Positions 32,498 to 51,466 of a DNA stretch of 51,466 nucleotides are shown here, one piece after another. A program made the translations under genes and the position numbers. The DNA is from a virus. Below the pieces are notes generated by a model. It worked only from the letters and a program-made list of their open reading frames with translations, made no database searches and had not been told where the DNA came from. Where the stretch lies: the IMG/VR virus record IMGVR_UViG_3300021090_000029, positions 1-51,466 of that record; one strand, 5' to 3'. The first letter of the stretch is position 1. Each line of letters begins with the position of its first letter.

Positions 32498-32499
32498 GG

Positions 32500-34874: not shown

Positions 34875-34882
34875 TGGTCCTC

Positions 34883-36761: not shown

Positions 36762-36778
36762 TCTTTTCTCCTTCGCGC

Positions 36779-37315: not shown

Positions 37316-37629
37316 TCCTTCCCCTCCTTGACTTCGCGGGCGGCGCGGACATAGGCGCAGACAGCTTCGATGAAGTTGCACAACATGAGCCAACTTGAGT
37401 TCCGCCCTCGCCGTTTAACCCTGGAGTGCATGACTCGCGCCAGCATTACCCATTGACCCATCGCCTTCAATCCGGCCCGCTCCGCCGGGGTCCAGAACAT
37501 CGGGTCGTTGCCGGGGATAAAGCCACGGCCAGAGCAATAAAAACAAACTACTTGCGCTGGCTTTCTCCCGTTTATTGCAAATGGTAGGTCCCATCGTTCT
37601 CCGCTCCCGCCGCACGTGAAGCACTTCAC
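37312..37629 (-). CDS. DnaJ-type zinc finger protein
   Basis: A 105-residue protein with two CxxCxGxG motifs (CFTCGGSG at the N-terminus and CFYCSGRG near residue 29), the DnaJ central zinc-finger pattern. The rest is helical. The tail EVKEGKE is encoded by purine-rich codons that form the next gene's ribosome binding site. Function unknown. Confidence 0.65.
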   Translation of the reverse strand: MKCFTCGGSGERWDLPFAINGRKPAQVVCFYCSGRGFIPGNDPMFWTPAERAGLKAMGQWVMLARVMHSRVKRRGRNSSWLMLCNFIEAVCAYVRAAREVKEGKE

Positions 37630-38204
37630 TTCTTTCCCTCCTGGTCTACGCGCCTGAATTCAATCACCCAGACCCAGGGATTAGCGTCCCACCCGAATCC
37701 CCGCTTGGCGTTCAGGGAGTCCCAATACAACATAAAAGCGGCCGTTGGGTTGGGGCATCGGAATCCTTCGGCCCAAGCCCCGCCGTCAACGTGCTGACCG
37801 AATTCGTCTTTTTTGTCGATCTCCTGCAACCTCTCGACCCTGACCGAGAGGACTTCGAGCGTGATCCGAGAGGCAAGGCGAGGCATAAAAATCGGGGATC
37901 GCCATTTCATTGGGCTAGCCGGGCCGTCACCCCGACCGTCTTGATGGTCGGCACGGTAAGAAATACCGCTTGGACAACCAGGAACATTGTCAGCCCAAGT
38001 CTCCCGGACCCAGAGTCGGTCGCCCGGTTGAAATGGCGATATCTTGAGCCATGCCGCTTTATAAGATTCAACCAAGGCTGGCATGATTTCAGGGCGATCC
38101 AAGATTTCGGGAGCATTCTTAATCACTCTCCTCGTCTGCGTCTTTCGTCCGTCGAGGATCGCCCGAACGCTCAGGTCGGAAAAGATGATCGGCCGCTCTT
38201 TCAC
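37626..38204 (-). CDS. ASCH-like phage protein
   Basis: A 192-residue protein starting at GTG (38204), overlapping the upstream stop and preceded by GGGAGGGGAAGAA. The sequence runs RPIIFSDLSVRAILDGRKTQ, TRRV, PGDRLWVRETWA, KWRSPIFMPRLASRITLEV, and ends NPWVWVIEF. This is a common phage protein with an ASCH/PUA-like fold, thought to bind RNA or modified nucleotides. No enzymatic activity is shown by the sequence. Confidence 0.75.
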   Translation of the reverse strand: MKERPIIFSDLSVRAILDGRKTQTRRVIKNAPEILDRPEIMPALVESYKAAWLKISPFQPGDRLWVRETWADNVPGCPSGISYRADHQDGRGDGPASPMKWRSPIFMPRLASRITLEVLSVRVERLQEIDKKDEFGQHVDGGAWAEGFRCPNPTAAFMLYWDSLNAKRGFGWDANPWVWVIEFRRVDQEGKK

Positions 38205-38518
38205 TTCTTCCCCTCCCACTCATCGAGGGCGGCGCGGAGTGCGTCTCGATCTTGACGATAAACCTGCCAAATCATGTATTTCATGCGTTCGTCGTCCATC
38301 TCCACGCCAGAGTCATCCAACATGTCCTTAGCCGCCTCCGCCAATTTCTCGGCGGCGTCGAGGCTGGAGAGGAGGCGGAGGATGGAGTCGGCGCGGGCCA
38401 AGCGTTCTTCCTCATTGGATACATCTTCACACCACGCGCTCAGCTTCGCACTCATCACACAATAGCGCCGTTCCTCTTCCGCCCACTCTCTCAGCGCGTT
38501 CCGGTCAGCGGGGGTCAT
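38201..38518 (-). CDS. Helical acidic protein
   Basis: A 105-residue protein rich in Ala, Glu, Asp and Arg and largely helical (SILRLLSSLDAAEKLAEAAK, then QDRDALRAALDEW). It resembles Ead/Ea22-type phage accessory proteins in composition. The tail EWEGKK doubles as the ribosome binding site of the downstream gene, with a GTGA overlap. Confidence 0.55.
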   Translation of the reverse strand: MTPADRNALREWAEEERRYCVMSAKLSAWCEDVSNEEERLARADSILRLLSSLDAAEKLAEAAKDMLDDSGVEMDDERMKYMIWQVYRQDRDALRAALDEWEGKK

Positions 38519-38784
38519 GGCTTCGGCTCCTTCTCCTCCTCCGCCTCGGTCCCTTCCGGCGCGTCCTCCACTTCCACGCCGAGGGAGTTGGCGGAATAAT
38601 CTACGATGATGCCCCAGGATTCCAAGATGGTCGCTATAGGGATTTCGGGACTCCCCCCCATGCTGGCGGCCAAAAGAGCCGCCTTAAACGCCCCCGCCAA
38701 CGAAGCCAGGGGTATCGCCCTCGGCTTCTCGCCCCGCTCCACCACCCACCCCTTGATTTCTTTCGCCTTTTTCGTCTTGGCCAT
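38515..38784 (-). CDS. KTKK-leader protein, copy 2
   Basis: An 89-residue protein beginning MAKTKKAKEIKGWVVERG, with GGAG 7 nt upstream. The first 16 residues match the product at 39796 (MTKTKK...) but the bodies are unrelated: this one is an Ala-rich helix with a very acidic tail (EDAPEGTEAEEEKEPKP). The shared 5' part is inside an 88-bp direct repeat. It is an example of leader reuse with a new body. Confidence 0.6.
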   Translation of the reverse strand: MAKTKKAKEIKGWVVERGEKPRAIPLASLAGAFKAALLAASMGGSPEIPIATILESWGIIVDYSANSLGVEVEDAPEGTEAEEEKEPKP

Positions 38785-38824
38785 GCTTATTCTCCGTTCT
38801 CCTCCCGGCACTTGGCGGGGCGGA
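38737..38824 (-). repeat. 88-bp direct repeat, copy 2
   Basis: Identical to 39749-39836 except one base (C at 38781, T at 39793), with a period of 1012 bp. It covers the end of a Cys-rich gene (RPAKCREENGE), the intergenic ribosome binding site and the start of a KTKK gene. It marks a duplicated two-gene cassette. Confidence 0.9.
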
Positions 38825-38963
38825 CGGCCCGAGCCCCGCCCATAGTGTCGAGAACAATCTCAAGGGCACGGCAATACGGCTGACGGAAAAACGGATGATG
38901 CCAATATAGGCACGGACACACGTCGCAGTATCGCGGATCGGGGAGGTTGATTGTGAGAATCAT
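38787..38963 (-). CDS. Small Cys-rich protein, copy 2
   Basis: A 58-residue protein; ATG at 38963 keeps the AGGAG-N7 spacing seen in its paralogue. It begins MILTINLPDPRYCDVCPC and ends RPAKCREENGE, with five Cys or more that could bind zinc. It is paralogous to the product at 39799 and is followed in both places by a KTKK gene. The middle differs strongly between copies. Confidence 0.6.
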   Translation of the reverse strand: MILTINLPDPRYCDVCPCLYWHHPFFRQPYCRALEIVLDTMGGARAVRPAKCREENGE

Positions 38964-38979
38964 GGTCATGCTCCTTCCC

Positions 38980-39519
38980 TCAATCCAGCACTCGGAGTCT
39001 CCGGACCCGGATCTTGACACCCATCGTCGGCAATCCTGCGAATAATATATCCTCGCTCTTGACCTCGACGGTCAGCGGGATGAGATCGTGATCCGCACCG
39101 CACAGGCCGCACCACTCGGGGCGGTATCCGGGGCGGAGGACGTGGAGGCCAGGGCCGCATTGTTGGTCGGAGATAACGGCGCCCTCGGCCTCGACGACCG
39201 CTCCTGTGGGATAGTGGAGGGGAGTCCCGCCATCGAAATTCGGGGACATGCGGCCTGGCGTAACCCATTTGAGAAACCGATGCGTCGGCCCCTGTGCGGC
39301 ATACGCCGCCCGGAAATGCTCATTGAGGGCCAAGGACGTGACCCAGTCGCCGAGCTTGACCCTGTTGCCGTCCGGAGAAACGCTCCAGCCATCCGTGAGA
39401 GGCCAGGATTTGATTGTTTTTACGTTTGCGTTGTAGATCACGCTCAGTCTCCTTTCCCTTTCTTCTTCTCCCGCCAGAAGCGACAGCCGAAATAGCGGCG
39501 GGGTCCACGTTTCGCTCAT
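38980..39519 (-). CDS. Hypothetical protein over recycled DNA
   Basis: A 179-residue protein (ATG 39519, GGAGG 6 nt upstream). It contains CGLCG and RPGYRPEW near the C-terminal third. Residues 11-21 are encoded by 34 bp identical to the 3' end of the gene at 39999, but read in a different frame. An alternative start is GTG at 39441, which has AGGAG 7 nt upstream and would give 153 residues starting VIYNANVKTIKSW. Function not recognised. Confidence 0.55.
   Translation of the reverse strand: MSETWTPPLFRLSLLAGEEERERRLSVIYNANVKTIKSWPLTDGWSVSPDGNRVKLGDWVTSLALNEHFRAAYAAQGPTHRFLKWVTPGRMSPNFDGGTPLHYPTGAVVEAEGAVISDQQCGPGLHVLRPGYRPEWCGLCGADHDLIPLTVEVKSEDILFAGLPTMGVKIRVRRLRVLD
39456..39489 (-). repeat. 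34-bp repeat read in two frames
   Basis: Identical to 40014-40047. In the gene at 39999 it encodes GCRFWREKKKG; here the same bases lie in the N-terminus of the product at 39519 as RLSLLAGEEE. The CRFWRE frame here is open but lacks a start and ends at a TGA shortly after, so it looks like a remnant. Confidence 0.8.
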
Positions 39520-39520
39520 G

Positions 39521-39796
39521 TCATTCCTCCACGATGAGAGTAGCGCGACGGATACGGTAAACGTTATAATCGGACGCCTGGAATCGCTCTTCAAAGGCGG
39601 CTTTCACCGCGAGCGCGTCCGATCGGGTTCTGAAAAAAAGATGCCCAAACGGAAGTCCCGCCCGAGACGCTGTCGGGTATCCCATGATTAGTCCGGCGGC
39701 CGACGGGCCGCAGCGCCGGAGGCTTGGGACCATATCGGGACCGCCCCACTCCACCACCCACCCCTTGATTTCTTTCGCCTTTTTCGTCTTGGTCAT
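39521..39796 (-). CDS. KTKK-leader protein, copy 1
   Basis: A 91-residue protein beginning MTKTKKAKEIKGWVVEWG with GGAG 7 nt upstream. The body differs from copy 2: GYPTASRAGLPFGHLFFRTR and SDALAVKAAFEERF suggest a small alpha/beta domain. It is preceded by the paralogous Cys-rich gene at 39996. Function unknown. Confidence 0.6.
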   Translation of the reverse strand: MTKTKKAKEIKGWVVEWGGPDMVPSLRRCGPSAAGLIMGYPTASRAGLPFGHLFFRTRSDALAVKAAFEERFQASDYNVYRIRRATLIVEE

Positions 39797-39836
39797 GCTT
39801 ATTCTCCGTTCTCCTCCCGGCACTTGGCGGGGCGGA
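39749..39836 (-). repeat. 88-bp direct repeat, copy 1
   Basis: Partner of 38737-38824 with one mismatch. It spans the junction between the Cys-rich gene and the KTKK gene, so what was duplicated (or kept identical) is the gene boundary rather than a whole gene. Confidence 0.9.
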
Positions 39837-39996
39837 GAATATATATTCTCCCATCGTCCGTGGCGTAGATATCTTCGTCCATGTCGCTCCAATACTGCAT
39901 GGCACACCAGGTCTCGTCCTCGTTCCCGTTGTCGCCTTGCTTGCACGGGCACCCGTCGCAGTATCGCGGATCGGGGAGGGTGATTGTGATGTGCAT
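39799..39996 (-). CDS. Small Cys-rich protein, copy 1
   Basis: A 65-residue protein with AGGAG 7 nt upstream: MHITITLPDPRYCDGCPC at the start and RPAKCREENGE at the end, as in copy 2. The middle is acidic (YWSDMDEDIYATDDG). Four Cys suggest a small zinc-binding fold. Function unknown. Confidence 0.6.
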   Translation of the reverse strand: MHITITLPDPRYCDGCPCKQGDNGNEDETWCAMQYWSDMDEDIYATDDGRIYILRPAKCREENGE

Positions 39997-39998
39997 GG

Positions 39999-40211
39999 TC
40001 AGACTCCTTTCTTCCCTTTCTTCTTCTCCCGCCAGAAGCGACAGCCGTATTCCTCTGATGTTTGAAGGCGCAGGGCATCTTGATTAGGAAACTCCGTTAG
40101 GCGATCAACCTCATCATTCATGCAGTCGCCCATTGGATCATCGGCAAATAAATGCCAATCCCTGCACGTCCCGCATCGCCACGCGGCGGGCTTGCATTTA
40201 CGAGCGGTCAT
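39999..40211 (-). CDS. Small Cys-rich protein with basic tail
   Basis: A 70-residue protein; ATG at 40211 overlaps the upstream stop (ATGA). CRGTC-like pairs (WRCGTCRDWH; GDCMND; YGCRFWRE) suggest a zinc-binding fold. The tail EKKKGKKGV is very basic, and its codons form the AGGAG used by the next gene. Similar small proteins with a GCRFWRE tail occur in other phages. Confidence 0.6.
   Translation of the reverse strand: MTARKCKPAAWRCGTCRDWHLFADDPMGDCMNDEVDRLTEFPNQDALRLQTSEEYGCRFWREKKKGKKGV
40014..40047 (-). repeat. 34-bp repeat, source copy
   Basis: Identical to 39456-39489. It encodes the GCRFWREKKKG tail of the gene at 39999-40211 and is probably the original reading frame. Confidence 0.8.
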
Positions 40212-40627
40212 GGCCTGGGCCTCCGCACCGCATAAATTTCCATCGAAGAAAGCGAAGGGCCACACTTTATTTTGCCGTCGCAAAAAAACCTCAAAAATCC
40301 GGACTTCGGTAGACAATCAACATTCCACCCGCTAGGGGGCACTAGGTCGGGGACTTTCCCGTATTTATCTAGCCAGTCGAACCCAAATCCACCAATCCCG
40401 TCGAGGTGAATTACGTCTGATCCTCCGCCGATTAGGCCAATCGGATTGTCGTCCTCATCTGCGGCGACAAAAGACATCGCGCGGAATCCACTGTCATGGA
40501 ACCGTCGCCGTGAGCCGCTTCCGGGGATAACAATAAGAGAGGCGCACGTGGCCTGCGCGTCCCAGGGCAAGCGCGGAACGGCCATTAGCTCCGCCCTCGA
40601 CATTGCCGACGCTTTTTTCTTGCTCAC
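40208..40627 (-). CDS. Hypothetical protein
   Basis: A 139-residue protein starting at GTG (40627), overlapping the upstream stop (GTGA) with GGAGAGAAGCC ahead. After a basic N-terminus (SKKKASAMSRAELMAVPRLP) it is beta-rich, with CASLIVIPGSGSRRRFHDSG and a Gly-rich loop (GLIGGGSDVIHLDGIGGFGF). It resembles small phage proteins of unknown function. Confidence 0.55.
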   Translation of the reverse strand: MSKKKASAMSRAELMAVPRLPWDAQATCASLIVIPGSGSRRRFHDSGFRAMSFVAADEDDNPIGLIGGGSDVIHLDGIGGFGFDWLDKYGKVPDLVPPSGWNVDCLPKSGFLRFFCDGKIKCGPSLSSMEIYAVRRPRP

Positions 40628-40815
40628 GGCTTCTCTCCCTTCGCGCGTCGTTCCGCTTCGATGCAAGCGGGGATGCGACGGCCGGTTTTCACGTCGTCAC
40701 TGAAAAGACCACAGATACCAAGTCCATTGACCTGCCCGGCATAGTCTGGGGAAAAATATGCGCATCTGCCGCACTTATCCACCGCGCAATCAATCGAGAT
40801 CAGGATGTTGGTCAT
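40624..40815 (-). CDS. Small Cys-rich protein
   Basis: A 63-residue protein, first gene of the unit driven by the promoter at 40834-40862. ATG at 40815 keeps AGGAG-N7 spacing (an in-frame ATG at 40821 is too close). CAVDKCGRCAYF, GICGLF and PACIEAE give five or six Cys in a zinc-finger-like order. The tail AKGEKP encodes the next ribosome binding site. Confidence 0.6.
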   Translation of the reverse strand: MTNILISIDCAVDKCGRCAYFSPDYAGQVNGLGICGLFSDDVKTGRRIPACIEAERRAKGEKP

Positions 40816-40817
40816 AA

Positions 40818-41297
40818 TCATTCTCCTGCGTTTATGATATCACACGATTTAGTCTTTGTCAAGTAGTCCGGACAATAAATAATTTTAACCCGAAACGATT
40901 GTTTGCACTCTTTGGAACAATTGAGACACTTGTCGTGATGCCGCTTCTCCCACCAACTACTCCACTCTCCTCGCCTTTTCGGGACATCACCACCCACATG
41001 CGCCCACGAATGTCCGTGACTTCTTTTTATGGCTGTTTTCGTACCGTGAAACTTAATTGTTTCCAATGACTTAAAGGTAACTAAATCGGCCTGTTTTGGG
41101 CTACCAGCTAGTCCCCTACCCGCATTTTTCTCGATAAACTCTATCGCCTTTTTAATCAACGGCTTAGACCCGGACTCCATTTGAGATAAATAGGGCCTAG
41201 AAACCCCAAAAATCGCGGCCAGCAACTTCTGTGAAATCCCCGCAGTTTCACGCGCATCCCGTAATGTTTGCCCGGCATGGCCGATCTGGTTCGACAT
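40818..41297 (-). CDS. XRE-family transcriptional regulator
   Basis: A 159-residue protein with GGAGGAG upstream. Residues 8-60 are a helix-turn-helix of the XRE/Cro type (LRDARETAGISQKLLAAIFG, then VSRPYLSQMESGSKPL). The C-terminal half has a Cys/His cluster (KRHHDKCLNCSKECKQ) that may bind zinc, unusual for a phage repressor. Its 3' end contains the promoter for the next unit, so it may control that promoter. Confidence 0.75.
   Translation of the reverse strand: MSNQIGHAGQTLRDARETAGISQKLLAAIFGVSRPYLSQMESGSKPLIKKAIEFIEKNAGRGLAGSPKQADLVTFKSLETIKFHGTKTAIKRSHGHSWAHVGGDVPKRRGEWSSWWEKRHHDKCLNCSKECKQSFRVKIIYCPDYLTKTKSCDIINAGE
40834..40862 (-). promoter_or_regulatory. Leftward sigma70 promoter
   Basis: On the - strand: TTGACA (40857-40862), 17-bp spacer, TATCAT (40834-40839). 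Both boxes are near consensus. It lies inside the 3' end of the XRE regulator gene and would drive the small Cys-rich gene cassette from 40.8 kb leftwards. Confidence 0.75.
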
Positions 41298-41304
41298 TCG
41301 TAAA

Positions 41305-41532
41305 TTACTCCTCCGGTTCTAGTTCACTAAGAAAAAAGCAACAGTATCCCCCGCCCCCCATGACTGCGACGGGAACCCCGTCAAATGACAGATATAAACG
41401 CGTGATTGTTCCCGTTTTTCCTGGCCTAATACCAGAGATAAGGCTTGCATAGTCTGGCCGGGCAACAATGACCCTATCCCCCACCTGAAATCCTGTTAGA
41501 CTCTTGGCGATCTCTCTGGAAAGATCGCTCAT
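41305..41532 (-). CDS. MSxLS/GDxV family paralogue 7
   Basis: A 75-residue protein starting MSDLSREIAKSLTGFQVGDR. KTGTITRLYL forms the KOW-like GxxGxI strand and the end is FLSELEPEE. The start overlaps paralogue 8 (ATGA). It is directly upstream of the XRE regulator gene. It has Asp instead of Lys at residue 3. Confidence 0.7.
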   Translation of the reverse strand: MSDLSREIAKSLTGFQVGDRVIVARPDYASLISGIRPGKTGTITRLYLSFDGVPVAVMGGGGYCCFFLSELEPEE

Positions 41533-41765
41533 GGTTCCACTACGAGTTTAAATAAAGAAGCCTCATATCGGTAAGTCTTGCCCCCTTCTATAATGACAAC
41601 CCTTCCGTTTCCTGCCCCCGCAACGGTCGCCGCGCCAAATTTCCTCATCGCATGACACGCCACGCAGTCGCAGTTCTTCCCCATCTCGGGGTCAACAAAC
41701 TCCACTAGGTCTCCGACCTGAAACCCGGTCAAGTCCGATGCCACGGCCCTGGATAACTTACTCAC
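41529..41765 (-). CDS. MSxLS/GDxV family paralogue 8
   Basis: A 78-residue protein starting MSKLSRAVASDLTGFQVGDL. The body has an inserted Cys cluster (NCDCVACHAM) that looks like a metal site, then AATVAGAGNGRVVIIEGG. The start overlaps the stop of the primase-helicase gene as ATGA, so the two proteins are made together. Confidence 0.7.
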   Translation of the reverse strand: MSKLSRAVASDLTGFQVGDLVEFVDPEMGKNCDCVACHAMRKFGAATVAGAGNGRVVIIEGGKTYRYEASLFKLVVEP

Positions 41766-43378
41766 CTGGAAAATCTCCCGAACATTCCCCTGGGTCTTTT
41801 GAGTCCGGCATCCTCCTCGTCGGTCTCGTAATGCCAGACCGACTGCGGAAGTATCTTCGCGCCCTGAATAATATTAAACTGCATGATCTTCCCGTTAGGG
41901 TTAAGGTCCCCCTTCCAATTCTTGGCCTTGACGATCTTCGCCACACCGCCGTCTAAGGACAAATACAGTCTAGGCTTCTCGCTAGAGAACGTCCCACCGC
42001 GCCCCAGGTCCTGCCCCTTTGTTTTCTGAATAGAGATCACGGCGATACCCTTCCTGAGTTTGGAAAAGATACTCCCCATGTATTCCCCGATCCTATAAAA
42101 CTCGGCCGGGGCCTCCAGGTAGTCTATGATATTCAGCGCGTCCGGATCAATGACATCCGAGAAGTTGTCCGACCGCTCATAAAACTCCACTTTCCAATCG
42201 TCAACCTTGCAATCGTCATGCTTTGACAGCCTTAGTTTAGTTTCCGCGTCCCCCATTTCCGAGGAAAAGTAAAGAACCCTCCGGGTGTTCATGTTCCTTT
42301 TAGCGATGTCAATGCACAGGGCCGTCTTTCCTGAATTGGGAGCACCAGCAATCACCAATAAATTTTGTGGATAGACGGAGATTAAGCTATTCAAATCCAT
42401 CGGCAGGGACACGTCATACTCCGATGTCGGAGCGTTCTTCCAATCAATGACAAGGCAATCCTTGGCGAGCTTCCGATATTCCCCGTCCCGTTTCCCGCCC
42501 TTTTCAAGTAGCCCCTCTTGTCTCATCCTGTGGAGCGCGGCCCGGACGGCGTTCTTTTCTTGCTTGCCGTCTATCCCTAACGACCTATAGACCTCAGAGA
42601 TCAGGAAAGACCCGTCGGTCGCGCCCACAAAATCCCTTACGTCATTGGACAGATTCTTTTCCCCGCGCCCGGCCCTCTCCAGGGCCGATGCAACCAAATG
42701 GTTAATGTCGTCGTCCATCCCCGTTTGGCTGGCGACCCAAGAGCAATAAGAATAGATTTCCTCTCGCCTGGATCGCCCTCGCGCCATGGATAAGGCCAGA
42801 GAAAACAAGTCCTCGTTTCTCCGCCCCGCCACGAAGAGAGCCGTGGGGGTAATGATCCTTGACGCGGCTCGATCCACCTGCCGAATCGCCTCCACGTATG
42901 CGGGGGGCAGGGGGGGTATAGGAGTATCTATTCCTAGAAATTCATCCCATACCCACCCCTTGCCGTGCCCGTTGACAGACGGCGGGGCAACGACATACCC
43001 GCCCTCGCCCCTTAAATCTACTCCGTCTACTCCACGGACATTGTTTCCAAGCCCCGGTTGCCAGCGACAATATAAATGCCTTCCCCCTTTGGGTGTATGG
43101 ACGGTTGGGGCTTGAAAAGTCTCCCCAGCAAGTTCTCTTATTTTCTTGAATCCGGACTCGGAGTCTATGTCGATGACGGCGATATCTGAAAGTTTCCCCG
43201 CCACAATCCCAACTTGAGAATCGGGATACATAGACCACCACTCTTTAAGGTCTTGCTCTAGCGGTTTATGAGACTGCCAATGTTCCCATTTAATTTTAGG
43301 CTTTTTATCCTGCCCTACAGGGATAGGGGTCCAGCCCCGTTTAAGATAATCCTTGGCCGCTACAAAAAGGCTGTTCAT
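41762..43378 (-). CDS. Primase-polymerase / helicase
   Basis: A 538-residue two-domain replication protein. Residues 1-165 are a bifunctional primase/polymerase (prim-pol, AEP) domain: D70-x-D72 in VIDIDSESG, HTPKGGRHLYCRW (H101) and GEGGYVVAPPS. A winged-helix-like linker spans about 255-300. Residues 335-520 are a RecA/DnaB-like ATPase with Walker A GAPNSGKT (345-352) and an SSEMGDAETKLR segment. It would prime and unwind at the phage origin. No separate DNA polymerase is in the window, so elongation probably uses the host enzyme. Confidence 0.85.
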   Translation of the reverse strand: MNSLFVAAKDYLKRGWTPIPVGQDKKPKIKWEHWQSHKPLEQDLKEWWSMYPDSQVGIVAGKLSDIAVIDIDSESGFKKIRELAGETFQAPTVHTPKGGRHLYCRWQPGLGNNVRGVDGVDLRGEGGYVVAPPSVNGHGKGWVWDEFLGIDTPIPPLPPAYVEAIRQVDRAASRIITPTALFVAGRRNEDLFSLALSMARGRSRREEIYSYCSWVASQTGMDDDINHLVASALERAGRGEKNLSNDVRDFVGATDGSFLISEVYRSLGIDGKQEKNAVRAALHRMRQEGLLEKGGKRDGEYRKLAKDCLVIDWKNAPTSEYDVSLPMDLNSLISVYPQNLLVIAGAPNSGKTALCIDIAKRNMNTRRVLYFSSEMGDAETKLRLSKHDDCKVDDWKVEFYERSDNFSDVIDPDALNIIDYLEAPAEFYRIGEYMGSIFSKLRKGIAVISIQKTKGQDLGRGGTFSSEKPRLYLSLDGGVAKIVKAKNWKGDLNPNGKIMQFNIIQGAKILPQSVWHYETDEEDAGLKRPRGMFGRFSR

Positions 43379-43388
43379 TCAAAACTCT

Positions 43389-43661
43389 TTAAATCAGCAC
43401 GATTGAAGACGCATCACAATACCAATGTCCGCATATCGCACGGCCCCTTCCTTTGTGTCCTTTTCCTTTCCTTTTCAATGCCGGGAAATACACTAACCAC
43501 TCATATTCCGTATCGGGCGCTACGATCTTTCCCCGCATGCCGAACATGTCGTCATCAACGCCTTGAACGTGTCCGTATCGGCTAGGCCGGACATACTTGA
43601 CGCGGTCCCCGACCTGAAAACCTGTCAGGTTCGAGGCCACGGACCTGGATAACTTACTCAC
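43389..43661 (-). CDS. MSxLS/GDxV family paralogue 9
   Basis: A 90-residue protein starting MSKLSRSVASNLTGFQVGDR. It has KIVAPDTEYEWLVYFPALKR and an end with ICGHWYCDASSIVLI. A basic insertion (KRKGKGHKGRGR) could bind nucleic acid. The start overlaps the stop of the HNH gene as ATGA, and the gene ends 10 bp before the primase-helicase start. Confidence 0.7.
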   Translation of the reverse strand: MSKLSRSVASNLTGFQVGDRVKYVRPSRYGHVQGVDDDMFGMRGKIVAPDTEYEWLVYFPALKRKGKGHKGRGRAICGHWYCDASSIVLI

Positions 43662-44347
43662 CTTTTGTCCTCCGGTATAAGATTATACCAGAAATCAAAA
43701 AGATTGACACGGTTATCCCACAGCCAATCCTTTCCCTCCGAGTGCTGTTCCGTATGGCACTTCCTACAAAGAGGGATCACCTTATACTCATCCGTCCCCG
43801 CGCCCTTCGTTCTCGGGAAATGGGCTGGATCAGACGGCTCATCCCCGCACGCTGCGCAAGCATGTGCCTTGACGTATTCCTTCCACGTTTTACACTTGTC
43901 AAGATTAATCTCGATCGGCCTTGTCCGCCCCGTCCCGCGAACCTTCCCCACCTCCGTCGCCAGATCAGAGCGGCTAAGCTCCTTGGCCTTTCCTAACCAT
44001 TCCTCGGGATTAGACTCGACCAGGGGAGCGATTAGCTGAAGTCGGCGCGTCCCGATTTCGATTAATCTCTCGGTTGGAATCTTTAGTTTCTGAACGTAGA
44101 GTTCGTATTGGTGTATAAGATTATAAACGGTGGATCGCTTCGCCGCAATTTGCGGGTCTGCCAAGTATTCATCGAAAGTTTCCCAACCTAAGAGTTTGTA
44201 ATACGAACGGTCGCGGCACTCTTTATAGAGTCCCGCCAAAATGAATACGGACCTACCTGCTTCTTTTTGGGTAGAGATAATTTCTTCTCTGTTCGAGTGC
44301 GCCAGACTAACTGTTATGTCGATGTTTTTGATTACTGCATTTGTCAT
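43658..44347 (-). CDS. HNH nuclease with N-terminal helical domain
   Basis: A 229-residue protein; ATG at 44347 has GGGAG 5 nt upstream and starts MTNAVIKNIDITVSL. Residues 20-150 are helical (FILAGLYKECRDRSYYKLLG; SRSDLATEVGKVRG-like) and resemble phage DNA-binding regions. Residues 165-215 are an HNH motif: CAACGDEPSDPAHFPRTKG, then VIPLCRKCHTEQHS. It likely nicks or cuts DNA at the phage origin or in recombination. Longer in-frame starts would overlap paralogue 10 heavily. Confidence 0.75.
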   Translation of the reverse strand: MTNAVIKNIDITVSLAHSNREEIISTQKEAGRSVFILAGLYKECRDRSYYKLLGWETFDEYLADPQIAAKRSTVYNLIHQYELYVQKLKIPTERLIEIGTRRLQLIAPLVESNPEEWLGKAKELSRSDLATEVGKVRGTGRTRPIEINLDKCKTWKEYVKAHACAACGDEPSDPAHFPRTKGAGTDEYKVIPLCRKCHTEQHSEGKDWLWDNRVNLFDFWYNLIPEDKR

Positions 44348-44366
44348 AGTAACTCCCATTCCGATG

Positions 44367-44612
44367 TCATAGTAACTCCAATTCCGAAAGAGAAAAACCC
44401 AGACGCGTAGTCGGGATATCCATCTTGACCCCATGGTATATTTCAATTGGTAAATCGAGGCGCACGCGAACCATACCCAACTCCGAAACGAAATCAACGG
44501 TGCCTTGCAAATTAGACATCTCCGGCCAATCGTCAATGGCCCCTGTTTTAACTCGGTCCCCAACAACAAAAATTGTCAATTCTTCAGCTATACGTCGAGA
44601 TAGACGGCTCAT
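44367..44612 (-). CDS. MSxLS/GDxV family paralogue 10
   Basis: An 81-residue protein starting MSRLSRRIAEELTIFVVGDR; the usual Gly at residue 14 is Ile. QGTVDFVSELGMVRVRLD is a clear KOW/SH3-like strand pair and it ends SLSELELL. The start overlaps paralogue 11 (ATGA). It is the last of three tandem members after the Cas4-like nuclease. Confidence 0.75.
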   Translation of the reverse strand: MSRLSRRIAEELTIFVVGDRVKTGAIDDWPEMSNLQGTVDFVSELGMVRVRLDLPIEIYHGVKMDIPTTRLGFSLSELELL

Positions 44613-44821
44613 AACAACTCCAATTCAGACGGCAAGAACGGAACTGTGCTTAAAATGTCGAGAAAAACATACCCCAGGCTCGAAATTAGAACTATGACCC
44701 CTTCGGTTCCGGCCTCGATTCCCCACGCTAGCGACGCTCTATCCGGCCAAGCTACCCGGACCGTATCTCCAACACCAAGACCGACCAGATCACGAGACAC
44801 CCGCTTGGATAGCCCGCTCAT
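44609..44821 (-). CDS. MSxLS/GDxV family paralogue 11
   Basis: A 70-residue protein; ATG at 44821 overlaps paralogue 12 and starts MSGLSKRVSRDLVGLGVGDT. It has a TEGVIVLISSLGYVFLDIL strand pair and ends LPSELELL, almost the same tail as paralogue 10. It is the shortest member and gives a good idea of the minimal fold: one helix plus about five strands. Confidence 0.75.
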   Translation of the reverse strand: MSGLSKRVSRDLVGLGVGDTVRVAWPDRASLAWGIEAGTEGVIVLISSLGYVFLDILSTVPFLPSELELL

Positions 44822-45036
44822 ATCAATTCCAATTCTTTCGCAGATAAGGCCCACCGCTCTTCTTTCGGTCTAACGTCGAACCTGACCAAATAAAAACCCG
44901 AAAGCGGGTGGGACGGTCCCAATACGGTCCCAATTTGTCCGCAAATACTGTCAGCCGGGACGTTGACTGCCATTACTCTGTCCCCTGATTGAAGACCAGC
45001 CAGGGCAACAGCGACCCGACTAGATAATTTACTCAT
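44818..45036 (-). CDS. MSxLS/GDxV family paralogue 12
   Basis: A 72-residue protein starting MSKLSSRVAVALAGLQSGDR. IGTVLGPSHPLSGFYLVRFD is the KOW-like part and the end is LSAKELELI. The start shares one base with the stop of the Cas4-like nuclease (TAATG). It opens the triple tandem at 44.4-45.0 kb. Confidence 0.75.
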   Translation of the reverse strand: MSKLSSRVAVALAGLQSGDRVMAVNVPADSICGQIGTVLGPSHPLSGFYLVRFDVRPKEERWALSAKELELI

Positions 45037-45938
45037 TATCTTTCAAGGCGCTCTAGTTGTTCTATGAGATTAAAGTCTTTTCTATTACCATTACTCTCCT
45101 TCCATTCCTTGTGTTGCGGGCAAACGTCCCGGACCTGACAATAAGACAGACATTTCATCGGTACATTTGGAATAAGCACTTTAAACTTCCAATTCTTAAT
45201 ATCACGAAACCACCTGTCCTTCACCCCGCACGTCCCGACTTTCAAGGGATCGCGCTCCGATTCTAAGAATTGGGCCAACCGTTCCGTAACGGCGTCCCTG
45301 ACTTTTTCGTCCTCGAATTTTGGCACGTCAATTCTTTCGATGGGCAGGACCCCATCTTCAAGCAGACTCGCCGGGGACCAATCCTTCAACTGAAATTCCA
45401 GCGTCATTTTTTCGGCCGGAAATCCGTAAACCCGATATGTATTCAACTGCCAAAAATAATCTTCGTCATCCCCGCCTTCACGCAACTTCTTTATTTGGTA
45501 TACTTTACCCGTCTTGTAATCCGTGATCTCGCTGTCTGTTTTGCTGTATTTGTCCACCCTCCCGGTTAGCGTCGCTTTCCCCGCCCGGGTTAAAATCTCG
45601 ACGGAGAAAGAAGCTTCCCTAACGGCGTCTTCGACATAGCCATGCGTATCGAATTTCCCGGGCTCGCCTTCCAAGATAGCGTGTAGCCCGCTTCCCAGGG
45701 ACATCGCGGCCATGGAATACGGGCTAACAAAGAAGTCTCGATTGCGGGCTAAGTAAACCTGCTGAACCGTCTTTCGCAGTTCGGTAACATGATAGATTCG
45801 CGGCTCGGGGATTCTGTCGGAATGCATAGCCAGCAACATATCTACAGTCATACATCGCCTCGGTTTGGCCGGGCAACCCTTTAGACAGTATTCGATCTTG
45901 ACGTTCCCGAAGCCAAGCGGACACGCAAAACCCATCAT
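45036..45938 (-). CDS. Cas4/RecB-like PD-(D/E)XK nuclease
   Basis: A 300-residue protein. Nuclease motifs are in order: GLHAILEGE (H86), GRVDKY (D129), EITDYKTGK (D140, K142), and Q164-x3-Y168. Cys residues at 6, 18, 22 and 29 and a C-terminal C-x3-C-x5-C (CLSYCQVRDVC) could hold an iron-sulfur cluster as in Cas4/AddB-type exonucleases. It probably resects DNA ends in recombination or replication. It lies beside an OB-like protein, typical of phage recombination modules, with paralogue 12 coupled downstream. Confidence 0.8.
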   Translation of the reverse strand: MMGFACPLGFGNVKIEYCLKGCPAKPRRCMTVDMLLAMHSDRIPEPRIYHVTELRKTVQQVYLARNRDFFVSPYSMAAMSLGSGLHAILEGEPGKFDTHGYVEDAVREASFSVEILTRAGKATLTGRVDKYSKTDSEITDYKTGKVYQIKKLREGGDDEDYFWQLNTYRVYGFPAEKMTLEFQLKDWSPASLLEDGVLPIERIDVPKFEDEKVRDAVTERLAQFLESERDPLKVGTCGVKDRWFRDIKNWKFKVLIPNVPMKCLSYCQVRDVCPQHKEWKESNGNRKDFNLIEQLERLER

Positions 45939-46457
45939 TTATTCCACCGGATTCAGCGTGTGATAATACTCTTTTAACAAGGCGTCCCCGAAATACGCAA
46001 CCACCTCGATAAAGTCTTGCTTCTTGGAGTCTAGTTCCTCCAGCGTCATCCCCTCAGCGACCTTGGCGAACAACGGCACGGAGATTTCCCCGGCGATCTT
46101 AAACATGGTCTGGAGAATAATCTCCCTCCGTTCGTCGGGTGACTTTTGCTGACGCGGCTTAAATCCGGGCGCGGCAACGGGATTATTGTCTTGGGCTCCG
46201 GCTTCCCGGTCCTGCCTTGCGATAGCCAGGAGATTAGCAAATGTCCCGGTTGCGGTTTGTTTCTCCGCATACGTTGCCTCTACCGTATCTCCAACCTTGA
46301 CCCCCTGGAGTTCCACGAAGGCAGGATTCCCGGAAACGCCGTCGCCGCCTTTGATAGTTTCCCAGGCCCTGATCTTCTTCCCGCCAACGGTAACATCCTT
46401 AAATCCGTCGCCGGGGTAAACACGATCCAACCGTCCGGTCAATTTCTTGACGTCCAT
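45939..46457 (-). CDS. OB-fold-like DNA-binding protein candidate
   Basis: A 172-residue protein; ATG at 46457 has GAGGAGGA upstream, while longer starts run into the previous gene. Residues 1-85 look like an OB barrel (MDVKKLTGRLDRVYPGDGFK; GVKVGDTVEATYAEK), a basic linker follows (PGFKPRQQKSPDERR), then a helical end. With the adjacent Cas4-like nuclease it suggests an ssDNA-binding or recombination factor. No known single-strand-binding family is certain. Confidence 0.55.
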   Translation of the reverse strand: MDVKKLTGRLDRVYPGDGFKDVTVGGKKIRAWETIKGGDGVSGNPAFVELQGVKVGDTVEATYAEKQTATGTFANLLAIARQDREAGAQDNNPVAAPGFKPRQQKSPDERREIILQTMFKIAGEISVPLFAKVAEGMTLEELDSKKQDFIEVVAYFGDALLKEYYHTLNPVE

Positions 46458-46473
46458 AAAATCCTCCTCGATA

Positions 46474-46797
46474 CTAATTATTTCCGGGTTTAAAAACACC
46501 CGGTTCATGGCAGAAAGGACATTCGCAATCATCTCCCTGTCTTCCCGGCCGCAACCGGGCGGGAGACTGTCCATCCGGATAGACATTAGTAGCCCTTTCA
46601 AAGGTGGCCGTCATTTCGCGCCGCCTGAATTCCTCGATGTCTTCCTCAGGGATAGTCCGGTTATGGACCTCAAGGTTTGAGGAATAAATAATGTTCGCGA
46701 CCTCCGTAGGGCTCCACAACCTATCCGGATCAACATGATCCAACCATTCCTTAAAATCATCTTGAGTCAGGATGCCGGGGATTAATGGTTCTTTCAT
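46474..46797 (-). CDS. Small protein with zinc-knuckle-like end
   Basis: A 107-residue protein, first gene after the promoter at 46806-46834. The N-terminal 45 residues look like a DNA-binding or helix-turn-helix-like fold (LTQDDFKEWLDHVDPDRLWS, then PTEVANIIYSS). The C-terminus has CECPFCHEPG, a single zinc-knuckle-like motif. It may be a regulator of the recombination genes downstream. Confidence 0.6.
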   Translation of the reverse strand: MKEPLIPGILTQDDFKEWLDHVDPDRLWSPTEVANIIYSSNLEVHNRTIPEEDIEEFRRREMTATFERATNVYPDGQSPARLRPGRQGDDCECPFCHEPGVFKPGNN

Positions 46798-46805
46798 GAT
46801 ATTTT

Positions 46806-46834
46806 ATCCTAACATTATTTTTAGCGGTTGTCAA
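46806..46834 (-). promoter_or_regulatory. Leftward sigma70 promoter
   Basis: On the - strand: TTGACA (46829-46834), 17-bp spacer, TAGGAT (46806-46811), the same box pair as the rightward promoter at 872-900. It lies between paralogue 13 and the gene starting at 46797, and would drive the recombination/replication unit. Confidence 0.75.
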
Positions 46835-47111
46835 GCGATTTCTTTCTTTTCTGCTCGATAAGCTTTAGGCGACTTTCTGGCTGGCAAAAGACACCGTTGC
46901 AGTATTTTGCCGTTGCCTCCTTATCCCACGTAACCCACACACTATTTGCCTCGACTGCCCCCCAATAAGGGTGTACTCCGTATCCCCATACCGTTCCCGC
47001 ATCTCCCTTCTTCAGCCCACAATGGAACTCTGTTTTGTCTTTAATCATAACCCTATCGCCTGGAGCGAATCCGATAAGTCCAGAGGCAATCCGCCTAGAT
47101 AGACTGCTCAT
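46821..47111 (-). CDS. MSxLS/GDxV family paralogue 13
   Basis: A 96-residue protein, the longest member, starting MSSLSRRIASGLIGFAPGDR. DAGTVWGYGVHPYWGAVEAN and a CNGVFCQPESRLKLIEQ end differ from relatives, with a basic tail (KRKKSLDNR). Its 3' end overlaps the -35 box of the promoter at 46829-46834. The start overlaps paralogue 14 as ATGA. Confidence 0.7.
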   Translation of the reverse strand: MSSLSRRIASGLIGFAPGDRVMIKDKTEFHCGLKKGDAGTVWGYGVHPYWGAVEANSVWVTWDKEATAKYCNGVFCQPESRLKLIEQKRKKSLDNR

Positions 47112-47371
47112 TCATCCTCCGTAATGACTTCGTATTCACCCGGCCAAAGACACCAAGAAACTCCTGGCCTTGCTCCGTCTTTGTTCCAGCCGACCTTATT
47201 TTTGAGTTTAATGGTTATGTCCCCGTCCGGACCAACCTCAGTAACAATCCCCCCTCTGGTCCGTCTAAGATAATCCCCCCACACGACAATACCTCTCTGG
47301 GTCAAACAAACGCGATCCCCGACCTGCGGCCCGATCAGGCTACCGGCAATCCGCCTAGATAATTTACTCAT
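47108..47371 (-). CDS. MSxLS/GDxV family paralogue 14
   Basis: An 87-residue protein starting MSKLSRRIAGSLIGPQVGDR. GGIVTEVGPDGDITIKLKNK and the DGARPGVSWCLWPGEYEVI tail match paralogue 4 nearly exactly, and DNA identity over 58 bp is 57/58. The start overlaps the VWA gene stop through ATGAGTAA (8 bp). Confidence 0.75.
   Translation of the reverse strand: MSKLSRRIAGSLIGPQVGDRVCLTQRGIVVWGDYLRRTRGGIVTEVGPDGDITIKLKNKVGWNKDGARPGVSWCLWPGEYEVITEDE
47163..47220 (-). repeat. 58-bp repeat shared with 32791-32848
   Basis: One mismatch in 58 bp relative to the copy in paralogue 4. It is the strongest nucleotide-level evidence that members of this protein family move or recombine within the genome. Confidence 0.85.
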
Positions 47372-48470
47372 CTTGCATCCTTACCACGTCCCCAAAAGGC
47401 GGGTCTGCGTCCTTCGTCATTGTAGCCCAAATGACGGGATAATTCGGCGGCGTCTCCGGAAACTCCCCATAAAGATCGGTCAAGTAGATCAGCACTTTAG
47501 GCGGGGACTCATCACAATGAGCAAACACGGGCCGAAAGTCTGTTCCCCCGCCGCCCCTCGGCTCAAACTGCCCGGCTGACACTAACTCCCCAGGCTCAAA
47601 AGTCTGAATATGCCCTATCTCTGCGTCACACCAGATCATTTCAACGGCCGCGCCGGTTTCGTCGGCTATGGAGACGACTTCCCCGATAAATTGTTTTAGA
47701 ATGTCCCCGCAAATTGACCCAGACGTATCTATGGCCACGGTTATCTTAGACCATCCCTCCGAATAAAGGCCGGGGAAATAAAGTCCCCTGTGGATCAGCC
47801 GCCGCGATGGTTTTGTCCAAGAGTAATCTTCCTTCCTGCAACTGTCTACAAACGGCCTTAATTGGAGCCTCCAATCAATTAACGGATTTACGATTTCGTC
47901 TATGATCCGTTCCAGCCCGGCGGGCAAACTCCCCCGGCTCTTGGCCGATCGGGCGGCCTCCGCTATAACCCCCCGCATTCCCGCTTCTGTTTTTTGCGTG
48001 TCTTTACCGCCGTTGGCGTCTCGGCATGCCCCGAAATTATAAAAACCTTTGATCTTTTTGGCATGTTTGAATAGATCATCGTAAACCCTATCGACAGTCC
48101 AATCATTATCATACTTGTCGTCTAAAAGACAGCCGGGGGGTAATTCCGCCCCCTGCTTCGTAAGAATCCGGTTAATGATGTAGTCTCCGGCGATGTTCCA
48201 AAGTAGCGGATCGCGGCCGTTCCGTCTGGTAATATGAAGAAAGCAAATATGAAGGGCCTCATGCTCCAAAAAAGCCCTTATCTGATTGTCGGTGAGTTTA
48301 TCTATAAACTCCGTACCATAGCCGATAACCCGACCGTCGGTGTATCCGGTAGGCTGGCTGTTGTCCTCTTTCAAAAGCAGTCGGGTAACTAAAAGACCAT
48401 AAAAAGGTTGCCCCCCGACGGCTTTTAACAGATTGATCCTCTGTTTAACGATCCTATCATGGGCTGTCAT
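47364..48470 (-). CDS. VWA / metallopeptidase-like protein (DUF2201 type)
   Basis: A 368-residue protein; ATG at 48470 overlaps paralogue 15 (ATGA). Near the start it has HEALH (residues 70-74) and WNIAGDYIIN, the zinc-peptidase-like signature, and later VAIDTSGS (248-252), a MIDAS motif of a von Willebrand A domain, with GGGGTDFRP and YLTDLYG. It therefore joins a predicted metallopeptidase to a VWA domain. Such proteins usually work with a MoxR AAA+ ATPase, and one is encoded two genes upstream. Confidence 0.8.
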   Translation of the reverse strand: MTAHDRIVKQRINLLKAVGGQPFYGLLVTRLLLKEDNSQPTGYTDGRVIGYGTEFIDKLTDNQIRAFLEHEALHICFLHITRRNGRDPLLWNIAGDYIINRILTKQGAELPPGCLLDDKYDNDWTVDRVYDDLFKHAKKIKGFYNFGACRDANGGKDTQKTEAGMRGVIAEAARSAKSRGSLPAGLERIIDEIVNPLIDWRLQLRPFVDSCRKEDYSWTKPSRRLIHRGLYFPGLYSEGWSKITVAIDTSGSICGDILKQFIGEVVSIADETGAAVEMIWCDAEIGHIQTFEPGELVSAGQFEPRGGGGTDFRPVFAHCDESPPKVLIYLTDLYGEFPETPPNYPVIWATMTKDADPPFGDVVRMQDE

Positions 48471-48718
48471 GCTAGTCTTATGTCCTCTTTCCAACACCAA
48501 TAACCCTGACATGGGCGGGTGTGCCCGCCGCAACTGCGCAAGGTCACGCATTTCGGCCACTCAACTGCCCAACTGTTATCGCGTTGGTCAAAAAACCGAA
48601 CCACTCCACGGGTCCCTTTTTTGATAGCCATGCCACCCAAGTCCAATACAGCTATAACCTCATCGCCGGGCAATATCCCAACTAAATCCCCGGCGATTTT
48701 CCGGGATAGTTTACTCAT
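48467..48718 (-). CDS. MSxLS/GDxV family paralogue 15
   Basis: An 83-residue protein; ATG at 48718 gives MSKLSRKIAGDLVGILPGDE, with GGGG upstream (a TTG at 48730 is possible). RGVVRFFDQRDNSWAVEW is the KOW-like part, and a Cys-rich end (LRSCGGHTRPCQGYWC) suggests metal binding. It sits exactly between MoxR and its VWA partner, and is the only member that does not overlap an upstream stop. Confidence 0.7.
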   Translation of the reverse strand: MSKLSRKIAGDLVGILPGDEVIAVLDLGGMAIKKGTRGVVRFFDQRDNSWAVEWPKCVTLRSCGGHTRPCQGYWCWKEDIRLA

Positions 48719-48748
48719 CTTACCCCGCAATCCGGCGCGATAGATCGC

Positions 48749-49735
48749 TCACACCAACACCGCCTTGTTCTTCTCGCACCACTTTTCGTACTCTGGATTA
48801 TCCCGCATCGTCCGATGCTTTCTTAGGGCATCCTGGACGATAAGCGTTGCGAACTCCGCCGGGAGCCGTTGTGCATAAATCATGACACGTCCGAAATTAT
48901 CTGGCGTTGTTACGTCCCCTAAAGATGTGGCCACGGCGTACATCGCGGACGTATTCTCAGACGGCGGGACCCGGGCGCTTTTCGGAGATTTTAGGATTTC
49001 TTCCGTTGTCGGCAACTCCCGCCACGTTTTCAGAAATCCATCGTATTCGATTGCCGCGCCCTCGCCGACCGCCCCGGCGGACAAAAGAAATTCCATGCCA
49101 GGATTATGGTTCGCCTTCAAAAGCCGGTCCAGCTTTTCCCATGACCGGGGAGTCGGAAACGCTTTTTCGTTTTTCTTTGTATCGTGATTAAACAGCATCA
49201 CTCTCCGGGCGCGGATGTAGCCGATTACCATCGGGCTAACCTTATTTGCTTGCGCCCACATGATCCATTCGTCTACGTCTGGCTCTAATGTGGCGTGCAC
49301 AAACCTATTAGCCAAGGCCGAGGACATAGAAAAGGCAATCGCCCGATCATTAAGCCTATTTCCCGCCGCGATAACATCCCATCCCTGAGGCAATTCATAG
49401 CTCCCTAAGCGCCGATCCAAAATCAATTGATAAAACGCCGCCTGGATACTAGGGGGGGCCGCCGTCAATTCGTCCAGAAACCATATCCCCGACCCCTCCG
49501 TGGGGAATTCCGCCGGGACAAGCCACTTTGTACGATCCCCCACCGCCGCCGGGACTCCCCGAGTATCCACGGCATCCATTTGCGAGGCCCTTGTATCATA
49601 TAATACCCGCCCCATTTCCTCGGCCACCTGCCGGACGATAGCCGATTTCCCGATCCCTGGCCCGCCCTCAATATAGACAGGTTCGTGGCAAGAGACCGCC
49701 GTAAACAGCAGGGCGCGGAGTTCTGATGGTTTCAT
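48749..49735 (-). CDS. MoxR-type AAA+ ATPase
   Basis: A 328-residue protein driven by the promoter at 49748-49776. Walker A is GGPGIGKS (24-31), Walker B WFLDE (D88, E89), sensor 1 is in AAGNRLND (N126), and an ALANRFVHATLEPD arginine-finger region follows. MoxR ATPases act as chaperones with VWA partners; the VWA protein lies two genes downstream. Together with paralogue 15 this forms a three-gene unit. The target is unknown. Confidence 0.85.
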   Translation of the reverse strand: MKPSELRALLFTAVSCHEPVYIEGGPGIGKSAIVRQVAEEMGRVLYDTRASQMDAVDTRGVPAAVGDRTKWLVPAEFPTEGSGIWFLDELTAAPPSIQAAFYQLILDRRLGSYELPQGWDVIAAGNRLNDRAIAFSMSSALANRFVHATLEPDVDEWIMWAQANKVSPMVIGYIRARRVMLFNHDTKKNEKAFPTPRSWEKLDRLLKANHNPGMEFLLSAGAVGEGAAIEYDGFLKTWRELPTTEEILKSPKSARVPPSENTSAMYAVATSLGDVTTPDNFGRVMIYAQRLPAEFATLIVQDALRKHRTMRDNPEYEKWCEKNKAVLV

Positions 49736-49747
49736 GTGTCCCCCTGA

Positions 49748-49776
49748 GTGATATCATTCGCCTTCGTTGTTGTCAA
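49748..49776 (-). promoter_or_regulatory. Leftward sigma70 promoter
   Basis: On the - strand: TTGACA (49771-49776), 17-bp spacer, TATCAC (49748-49753). It is 13 bp upstream of the MoxR start. The gap 49736-49849 otherwise holds no gene. Confidence 0.75.
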
Positions 49777-49849
49777 GCTGTTTTTGGCCCGACGCGACCC
49801 GGCCTCCGCAAGGGCCGCGTTTCGTCCTCACCGGACTCGTCAGGGGCAG

Positions 49850-50596
49850 TTACCTGATTTTTCCCTCCCACAAAACCTTCCCGCCTTTCCCCCCGTGAAG
49901 TCTCCATTTCTCGCCGCCGAAGGATGGGACTAGCCCCATTTCCCATAGATCAACGGCGGCCTGGAACGGATAAGTCGTCGTTCGAATTTTCTCCGCGCAT
50001 TTCCACGACTTGCGAGGGAGAGCAAAGAACGATCCGGTATAAGCCAAGGCGCTTCCCCAGACGCTTCCCCAGGCGCTTCCCCTGACGCTTTCCCTGACGC
50101 TTTCCCTGACGCTTTCCCAGGCGCTTTCCCCGACGCTTCCCCAGACGCTTCCCCAGACGCTTTCCCCGACGCTTTCCCTGACGCTTTCCCCGACGCTTTT
50201 CATGACGCTTTCCCAGACGTTTGACCATTGTTTTAATAGGGTCAGGTGTTTTGCCGTTATCTTTTTCGGGGGCGCGACCCGGAACGGATGGACGATCGGC
50301 TTGCGGACGAGAATCTTATCCAGCTTCGCAAGCCACTTCTTGTGTGCCGTCGTTGCCTCCGCCATGTGGACTTCGCTCCACCAATCCGGCGGAGCGTCCT
50401 CGTCCAGCCGGAACTTCCACTTGTCCGGCGCGAGATAAGACCCGTTGGCCGGGGCTATCTCGAACCGCGCCCAGTCCCGGGTATATCCGTCGTCTTTTAA
50501 CACATAGTCGCGGACAAGGTCTTCATGCGCATCCGTGCCGAATTTCCAAATGACCTTGCCTGACTCTAGGATCAGCCCGGAAAAGGCTTTACACAT
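49850..50596 (-). CDS. Protein with tandem ESV/GSV tetrapeptide repeats
   Basis: A 248-residue protein; ATG at 50596 overlaps the previous stop. Residues 1-127 form a mixed domain with several Trp. Residues 128-183 are 14 tandem tetrapeptides (WESV, MKSV, RESV, WGSV, WGSA type). A short aromatic cap (AYTGSFFALP) and a C-terminal domain follow. Similar xxSV repeats capped by SFF are seen in environmental phage proteins of unknown function; the repeats may form a regular solenoid or amphipathic sheet. Confidence 0.7.
   Translation of the reverse strand: MCKAFSGLILESGKVIWKFGTDAHEDLVRDYVLKDDGYTRDWARFEIAPANGSYLAPDKWKFRLDEDAPPDWWSEVHMAEATTAHKKWLAKLDKILVRKPIVHPFRVAPPKKITAKHLTLLKQWSNVWESVMKSVGESVRESVGESVWGSVWGSVGESAWESVRESVRESVRGSAWGSVWGSALAYTGSFFALPRKSWKCAEKIRTTTYPFQAAVDLWEMGLVPSFGGEKWRLHGGKGGKVLWEGKIR
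50048..50215 (-). repeat. 12-bp tandem repeat array
   Basis: Fourteen degenerate 12-bp units (GACGCTTTCCCN-type on the + strand) encode the ESV/GSV tetrapeptides. Variation is mostly at the first two codons of each unit. The array could expand or contract by slippage. Confidence 0.75.
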
Positions 50597-50986: not shown

Positions 50987-51466
50987 TTACTTCTCCTTCG
51001 CCTTGGCAATGGCGGACCCTGAGATTCCGAGGTCCTTCGCCCGATGGCTCGTCCGGGCGAATCCCAGGATTGCCTTCCGCGCCGCGCGATAGGCCTGGTC
51101 CTCGCAGTCGATGGCGCAAAAATGGGCCGCCAACTGCGCGGCGATCCTCGCATCCACCCGGACGCCCCTGGAGCCGCACCAGAGCGGCCAGCAGGCGTAA
51201 TCCAGGTCGGCCCCGCTCAGGTTGGCCCCGCGCAGGTCGGACCAGCTCAGGTCGGCCCCGCTCAGGTCGGCCCCGCTCAGGTTGGCCCCGCGCAGGTCGG
51301 CCCCGCGCAGGTCGGACCAGCGCAGGTCGGCCCCGCGCAGGTCGGCCCCGCGCAGGTCGGACCAGCTCAGGTTGGCCCCGCGCAGGTCGGCCCCGCGCAG
51401 GTCGGCCCCGCTCAGGTCGGCCCCGCCCAGGTCGGCCCCGCTCAGGTCGGCCCCGCTCAGGTCGGC
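50987..51466 (-). CDS. Pentapeptide-repeat protein (5' partial)
   Basis: An open frame of 160 codons running in from the window edge, so the start lies outside. The visible N-terminal part is about 18 A(D/N)LxG/W units (ADLSG, ADLRG, ANLSW, SDLRG), the right-handed quadrilateral beta-helix repeat. The last 75 residues are a non-repeat domain with Cys/Trp (YACWPLWCGSRG) and a helical, basic end. Some pentapeptide proteins (Qnr, MfpA) mimic DNA and bind gyrase, but here only the fold is supported. Confidence 0.8.
   Translation of the reverse strand, partial: ADLSGADLSGADLGGADLSGADLRGADLRGANLSWSDLRGADLRGADLRWSDLRGADLRGANLSGADLSGADLSWSDLRGANLSGADLDYACWPLWCGSRGVRVDARIAAQLAAHFCAIDCEDQAYRAARKAILGFARTSHRAKDLGISGSAIAKAKEK
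51190..51466 (-). repeat. 15-bp tandem repeat of pentapeptide codons
   Basis: Near-identical 15-bp units (GGTCGGCCCCGCTCA-type on the + strand) continue to the window edge, differing mainly at two positions. High nucleotide identity indicates recent tandem expansion, and the array may be a cause of the contig ending here. Confidence 0.8.

Follow-up and report, generated by a model that had tools for sequence, protein, structure and literature searches.

The window analysed here, by which we mean the whole virus record of 51,466 bases, carries on its minus strand a gene for a MoxR-type AAA+ ATPase and a gene for a DUF2201 protein that combines a zincin-like metallopeptidase domain with a VWA domain, accompanied by members of a family of small genes that is found repeatedly in the same record (Table 1). 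The ATPase and DUF2201 genes lie close together on one strand with the ATPase gene first, and this order matches that of their relatives. The preliminary description had placed these two genes and the small gene between them in a three-gene unit. All three genes are present, but the unit continues through the small genes at 47108-47371 and 46821-47111; because these two follow the VWA gene with overlaps, full genes in the coupled unit number five, and it is better read as the overlapping series ATPase, small, VWA, small, small. The stop codon TAA of the VWA gene sits within the ATGAGTAA start of the small gene at 47108-47371, and the TGA of the small gene at 48467-48718 shares the sequence ATGA with the ATG of the DUF2201 gene at 48470. 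Because of this second overlap, the start of the DUF2201 gene is most likely the ATG at 48470 and not the GTG at 48560, so that the protein would have 368 rather than 398 amino acids. Between the ATPase gene and the first full small gene lies a truncated copy of the family 5' end, the GTGA of which overlaps the ATPase stop codon; this ten-codon relic, placed just ahead of a full copy, looks like the result of recombination between family 5' ends.

Table 1. Features of the locus and of the wider window, with positions counted from the first base of the window
Feature	Position	Strand	Description
Putative -35 element 5' of the ATPase gene, CTTGACAAC	49769..49777	-	Consensus match only
MoxR-type AAA+ ATPase	48749..49735	-	328 aa, N4 gp24-like, phrog_1297
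Truncated 5' end of the small family	48720..48752	-	VSDLSRRIAG then TAA; read directly from the sequence
Small family member between the ATPase and VWA genes	48467..48718	-	83 aa including Met; profile E 1.1e-15 in its own record
DUF2201 protein	47364..48470	-	368 aa, N4 gp25-like, zincin-like metallopeptidase (HEALH) plus VWA with MIDAS, phrog_1314
Small family member directly 3' of the VWA gene	47108..47371	-	Profile match
Second tandem small family member, last in the coupled unit	46821..47111	-	Profile match
Small family	31173-48718	-	15 genes; constant N-terminus SKLSRxxAxxLxGxxxGDxV, variable and probably SH3/KOW-like body
Portal	2073-4148	+	
Terminase	29562-31256	+	
Primase	41762-43378	-	

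Upstream of the ATPase gene there is a gap of 114 bases, inside which a TTGACA is found at 49771-49776 (-) with a weak -10 region. This TTGACA, a candidate element for the own promoter that the preliminary description gave the unit, is not in the output of our consensus promoter scan. CTTGACAAC recurs exactly only once more, at 46827-46835, where the five-gene unit ends, and the scan gave a TTGACA-17-TAGGAT match at 46834-46806, after the small gene at 46821-47111.

The ATPase was correctly recognized as MoxR-type from the sequence: it matches Pfam AAA_5 (1.6e-07) and, much better, phrog_1297 (6.8e-95), and among sequences with a solved structure midasin and NorQ come nearest to it. Its relatives keep the Walker A motif GGPGIGKS, the Walker B motif FLDE, the sensor Asn126 and Arg197 of the PRS, and the alignment shows that Arg144 is likewise kept. 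A tblastn search placed relatives of the ATPase in 854 phage records, and a peptide-pattern search of viral_contigs found no close viral relative.

The second protein contains the HEALH and DTSGS motifs noted earlier and is indeed a DUF2201 protein, with matches to DUF2201_N (7e-38), to the DUF2201 VWA domain (7.9e-26) and to phrog_1314 (5.7e-92); its relatives were found by tblastn in 573 phage records. We aligned 15 DUF2201 proteins, one of them a fragment, and found that HEALH aligns with the HExxH of the relatives, that 14 of the 15 retain H70, H74, H79 and D96, and that the MIDAS residues D248, S250, S252, T310 and D332 (DxSxS...T...D) are kept in all of them. The degenerate catalytic residues that would have spoken against the assignment were therefore not seen, the key residues of both the ATPase and the DUF2201 protein being conserved across relatives. 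In phage Atu_ph07 (L013 3941-5230) the HExxH reads HQILH, with Gln in place of the catalytic Glu but the remaining conserved His and Asp residues retained, so some members may not depend on proteolysis. The structure model of the DUF2201 protein is of low confidence (pLDDT 65, pTM 0.46), and its Foldseek matches to VWA domains, to a chain of the NorQD complex and to minigluzincins are weak, none having an E-value below 0.1; such matches agree with a protein built from a zincin and a VWA domain, as far as a model of this quality can indicate.

Many homologs of the DUF2201 protein in GenBank are called HNH endonuclease or homing endonuclease, for example in NC_049444.1 (L016), and phrog_1314 itself carries the label HNH endonuclease. 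We rejected this label for the protein in the window, for which Pfam gives only DUF2201_N and DUF2201 and no HNH domain, and the use of the HNH label for DUF2201 zincin-VWA proteins is apparently a propagated annotation error. A correct label would be useful, as a core gene pair of N4-like phages is widely mislabeled in this way.

The nature of the partner also bears on what kind of MoxR system this could be. MoxR-VWA pairs include CobS/CobT, and the ATPase has a second PHROG match, to phrog_249 (6.6e-08), which is labeled porphyrin biosynthesis. One could therefore propose a CobS/CobT-like metal-insertion machine that acts with a host chelatase subunit, but this match scores only 33 bits against 319 for phrog_1297, and the partner, a zincin-VWA protein of the DUF2201 type, matches CobT in none of Pfam, PHROGs and NCBIfam, so that we consider metal insertion highly improbable.

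The reading of the two genes as a MoxR/VWA-metallopeptidase pair was right, although such pairs were already known (PMC7824862), including N4 gp24/gp25 (PMC4193335, PMC2784036). N4 gp24, an AAA ATPase, and gp25, a vWFA protein, belong to the set of 14 core genes that N4-like phages share (PMC4193335; PMC2784036), and a 2021 survey of jumbo phages described ASV44729.1/ASV44728.2 of Atu_ph07 (locus L013 of our analysis) as a chaperone/co-chaperone pair of the MoxR AAA+-vWA kind that has a metallopeptidase domain at the N-terminus, and proposed that it takes part in virion assembly, where peptides would be processed (PMC7824862). The pair recurs in Presley, where the homolog is annotated N4 gp25-like, and in phiFa, pVa5, RHph_TM27B, Atu_ph07, RCIP0023, Pylas and IMG/VR contigs. 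By homology and conserved motifs, the ATPase and the DUF2201 protein of the window are thus this known phage gene pair of the N4 gp24/gp25 type, present in a divergent virus. On the function of N4 gp24/gp25 the literature yielded only listings and the jumbo-phage proposal, and we found no biochemical evidence for any phage member of the pair.

What lies between the two genes differs among these relatives. The gap is empty in Pylas, Atu_ph07 and RCIP0023, and in Pylas an HNH intron splits the ATPase gene beside the DUF2201 gene. Presley has one unrelated gene between the pair, phiFa and RHph_TM27B have three, pVa5 has about 15, and the IMG/VR loci have other small genes that give no match to the small family. 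In phage G and in a Simplicispira plasmid we detected no ATPase of the pair's kind next to the DUF2201 gene. The small-family profile, which recovers 15 copies in the window as a positive control, found no match in 12 viral records carrying the DUF2201 gene, some of the IMG/VR records among them being fragments. Because the gap contents vary and the family is absent from these 12 records, the small gene is not a conserved component; the idea of a conserved triplet had to be rejected, as none of the relatives covered by the neighbor surveys has this small gene between the two genes and the whole-record profile searches gave no family member in the 12 records. Absence from related pairs is what the preliminary description had itself named as refuting its reading. 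Judged from these comparisons, the small gene at 48467-48718 happens to sit between the pair and is not a defining component of it.

The same result bears on a link to defense, which had been mentioned as one possibility and of which we found no sign. Known MoxR-vWA ternary conflict systems couple a MoxR protein, a vWA protein, with peptidase effectors possible, and a third sensor protein (PMC7159879, PMC12839542), and the pair could in principle be a virus-borne system of this kind. However, PADLOC gave no match for any of the three proteins, the ATPase scores 18.2 against the bpMoxR Pfam model where the cutoff is 27, the 83-aa small protein matches no component of such systems and is not conserved beside the pair, and the relatives belong to the core gene set of N4-like phages; a conflict system is accordingly a very unlikely reading. 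Membership in the VMAP, iSTAND, FtsH and bpMoxR ternary systems was examined and rejected, there being no conserved third component or system-specific MoxR.

The small GDxV protein between the pair belongs, as had been suggested, to a paralogous family, of which the profile finds 15 members. All begin MSKLSRxxAxxLxGFxVGDRV and diverge beyond it. The description of the protein as Cys-rich holds for the copy at 48467-48718, which has four Cys, but not as a feature of the family. Over the first 21 residues the members average 57% identity while their fourfold third positions are 36% identical, and therefore the likeness is held by selection on the protein and not by recent copying; the 15 members are anciently diverged. 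In 13 of the 15, an open frame of at least 55 codons lies upstream and its stop codon overlaps the start or comes within 2 bases of it, although some of these frames may not be genes, and the overlaps are mostly (A/G/T)TGA or ATGAGTAA, which suggests translational coupling.

Pfam, PHROGs, NCBIfam and PADLOC gave no match for the small protein at 48467-48718, and the family as a whole matched nothing above the cutoff of any curated family. A model of the copy at 47108 has an N-terminal helix followed by five strands (pLDDT 72), with best Foldseek E-values of 0.058 in PDB and 0.0056 in BFVD. The weak matches of the family are to Mib, Tudor, CAP-Gly and Spt5 KOW domains and to small phage proteins, the profile reaching E 2.6e-4 against the Spt5 KOW region, and the variable body is likely to be an SH3-like binding fold if the model can be trusted. 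Searches with single proteins gave weak matches only (phrog_5785 at 2e-4 for 41305-41532 and Streptomyces phages at E 0.6) and peptide-pattern searches gave no relative. The N-terminal DNA pattern of the family occurs 11 times in the window but gave no hit in either viral_contigs or genome_contigs, where near-identical records may be hidden. With that same reservation about near-identical records, the family is virus-specific as far as the collections searched can tell.

Given this fold and the gene arrangement, the small protein could be a true third component of the machine that is specific to this virus, an adaptor, substrate or regulator whose SH3-like domain brings targets and for which other members swap in. 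It is probably cotranslated with its neighbors, in view of the ATGA overlap with the VWA start, two more members directly follow the VWA gene, and the family fold resembles SH3, KOW and Tudor binding domains. Against this, most of the 15 members adjoin unrelated genes (e.g., those for the primase, an exonuclease and an HNH protein), records with related pairs lack the family, and tight overlaps are typical of the whole family and not special to the site at 48467-48718. We therefore regard a third component as unlikely, and the roles of substrate, adaptor or regulator put forward in the preliminary description are not supported, the family being absent from the 12 viral records with the VWA gene. 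A broader version, which we hold to be quite unlikely, is that all 15 small proteins are interchangeable adaptors, with the shared SKLSRxxA helix docking on one partner (e.g., the MoxR-VWA machine or a polymerase) and the variable SH3-like bodies binding different targets; if true, the adaptor array would serve this virus as a toolkit of its own with which a single machine is directed to many targets. The unusual part of the locus is in any case this 15-copy family, with its constant N-terminal helix, variable body and stop-overlapping starts, and it merits its own study.

Taken as a whole, the locus is very probably explained by an N4 gp24/gp25-type MoxR-VWA chaperone/co-chaperone pair that remodels some complex, with the small gene an incidental family member. 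The mode of action described for MoxR-VWA systems is that of an AAA+ ring with a docked VWA partner and a dedicated target (PMC7159879 and general knowledge). By analogy, the VWA protein would probably dock on the ATPase ring by way of the MIDAS, the ring would remodel a complex of the virus or of the host at the expense of ATP, and the metal-binding zincin domain would cut or grip the target, which could perhaps be a virion, replication, transcription or host complex. N4 gp24 and gp25 are middle transcripts (PMC4193335), and early or middle expression of the pair in the window is likely by analogy with N4 and from its position beside primase and exonuclease genes only.

We found no phage DNA nearly identical to the window. 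The best-covered matches of its terminase, portal and primase, at 22-32% identity, come from tailed viruses attributed to Methanomicrobiales or Methanosarcina or to the groundwater of Manatee Spring, and the host may be a methanogen, for which the evidence is thin. Three archaeal-virus records that share the terminase, portal or primase contained neither the pair nor the small family. Elsewhere in the window, 49850-50596 (-) encodes a protein with four-residue repeats (ESVR/GSVW type) on DNA made of GACGCTTTCCC-like tandem repeats, and 51180-51466 (-) is a pentapeptide-repeat-like coding sequence (GADLRGADLSGADL type) that continues past the window end.

Among known systems, N4 gp24/gp25 of the Schitoviridae (phrog_1297, phrog_1314) has its families, order, strand and key residues in common with the pair described here, but the virus in the window is not an evident N4 relative and carries a member of its virus-specific small family between the two genes. 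The group 2.2 jumbo-phage pair of Atu_ph07 has the identical domain architecture and differs in that its genes are adjacent without an intervening gene and that it has HQxxH, whereas the window has the small gene between and HExxH. The small SH3/KOW-like phage proteins (DUF4314, Mind-bomb-type SH3 and YorP) resemble the small family in predicted fold and through the weak KOW and Mib profile matches, while the family in the window adds the N-terminal helix SKLSRxxA and has 15 copies in one genome. NorQ/NorD, RavA/ViaA, CbbQ/CbbO, CobS/CobT and midasin share with the window a MoxR-type AAA+ protein with a VWA partner, the ATPase having a sequence match to NorQ and midasin and the VWA protein a weak fold match to a chain of the NorQD complex. 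The targets of these systems are cellular complexes, and to our knowledge their VWA partners are without the DUF2201 zincin domain that the protein in the window carries.
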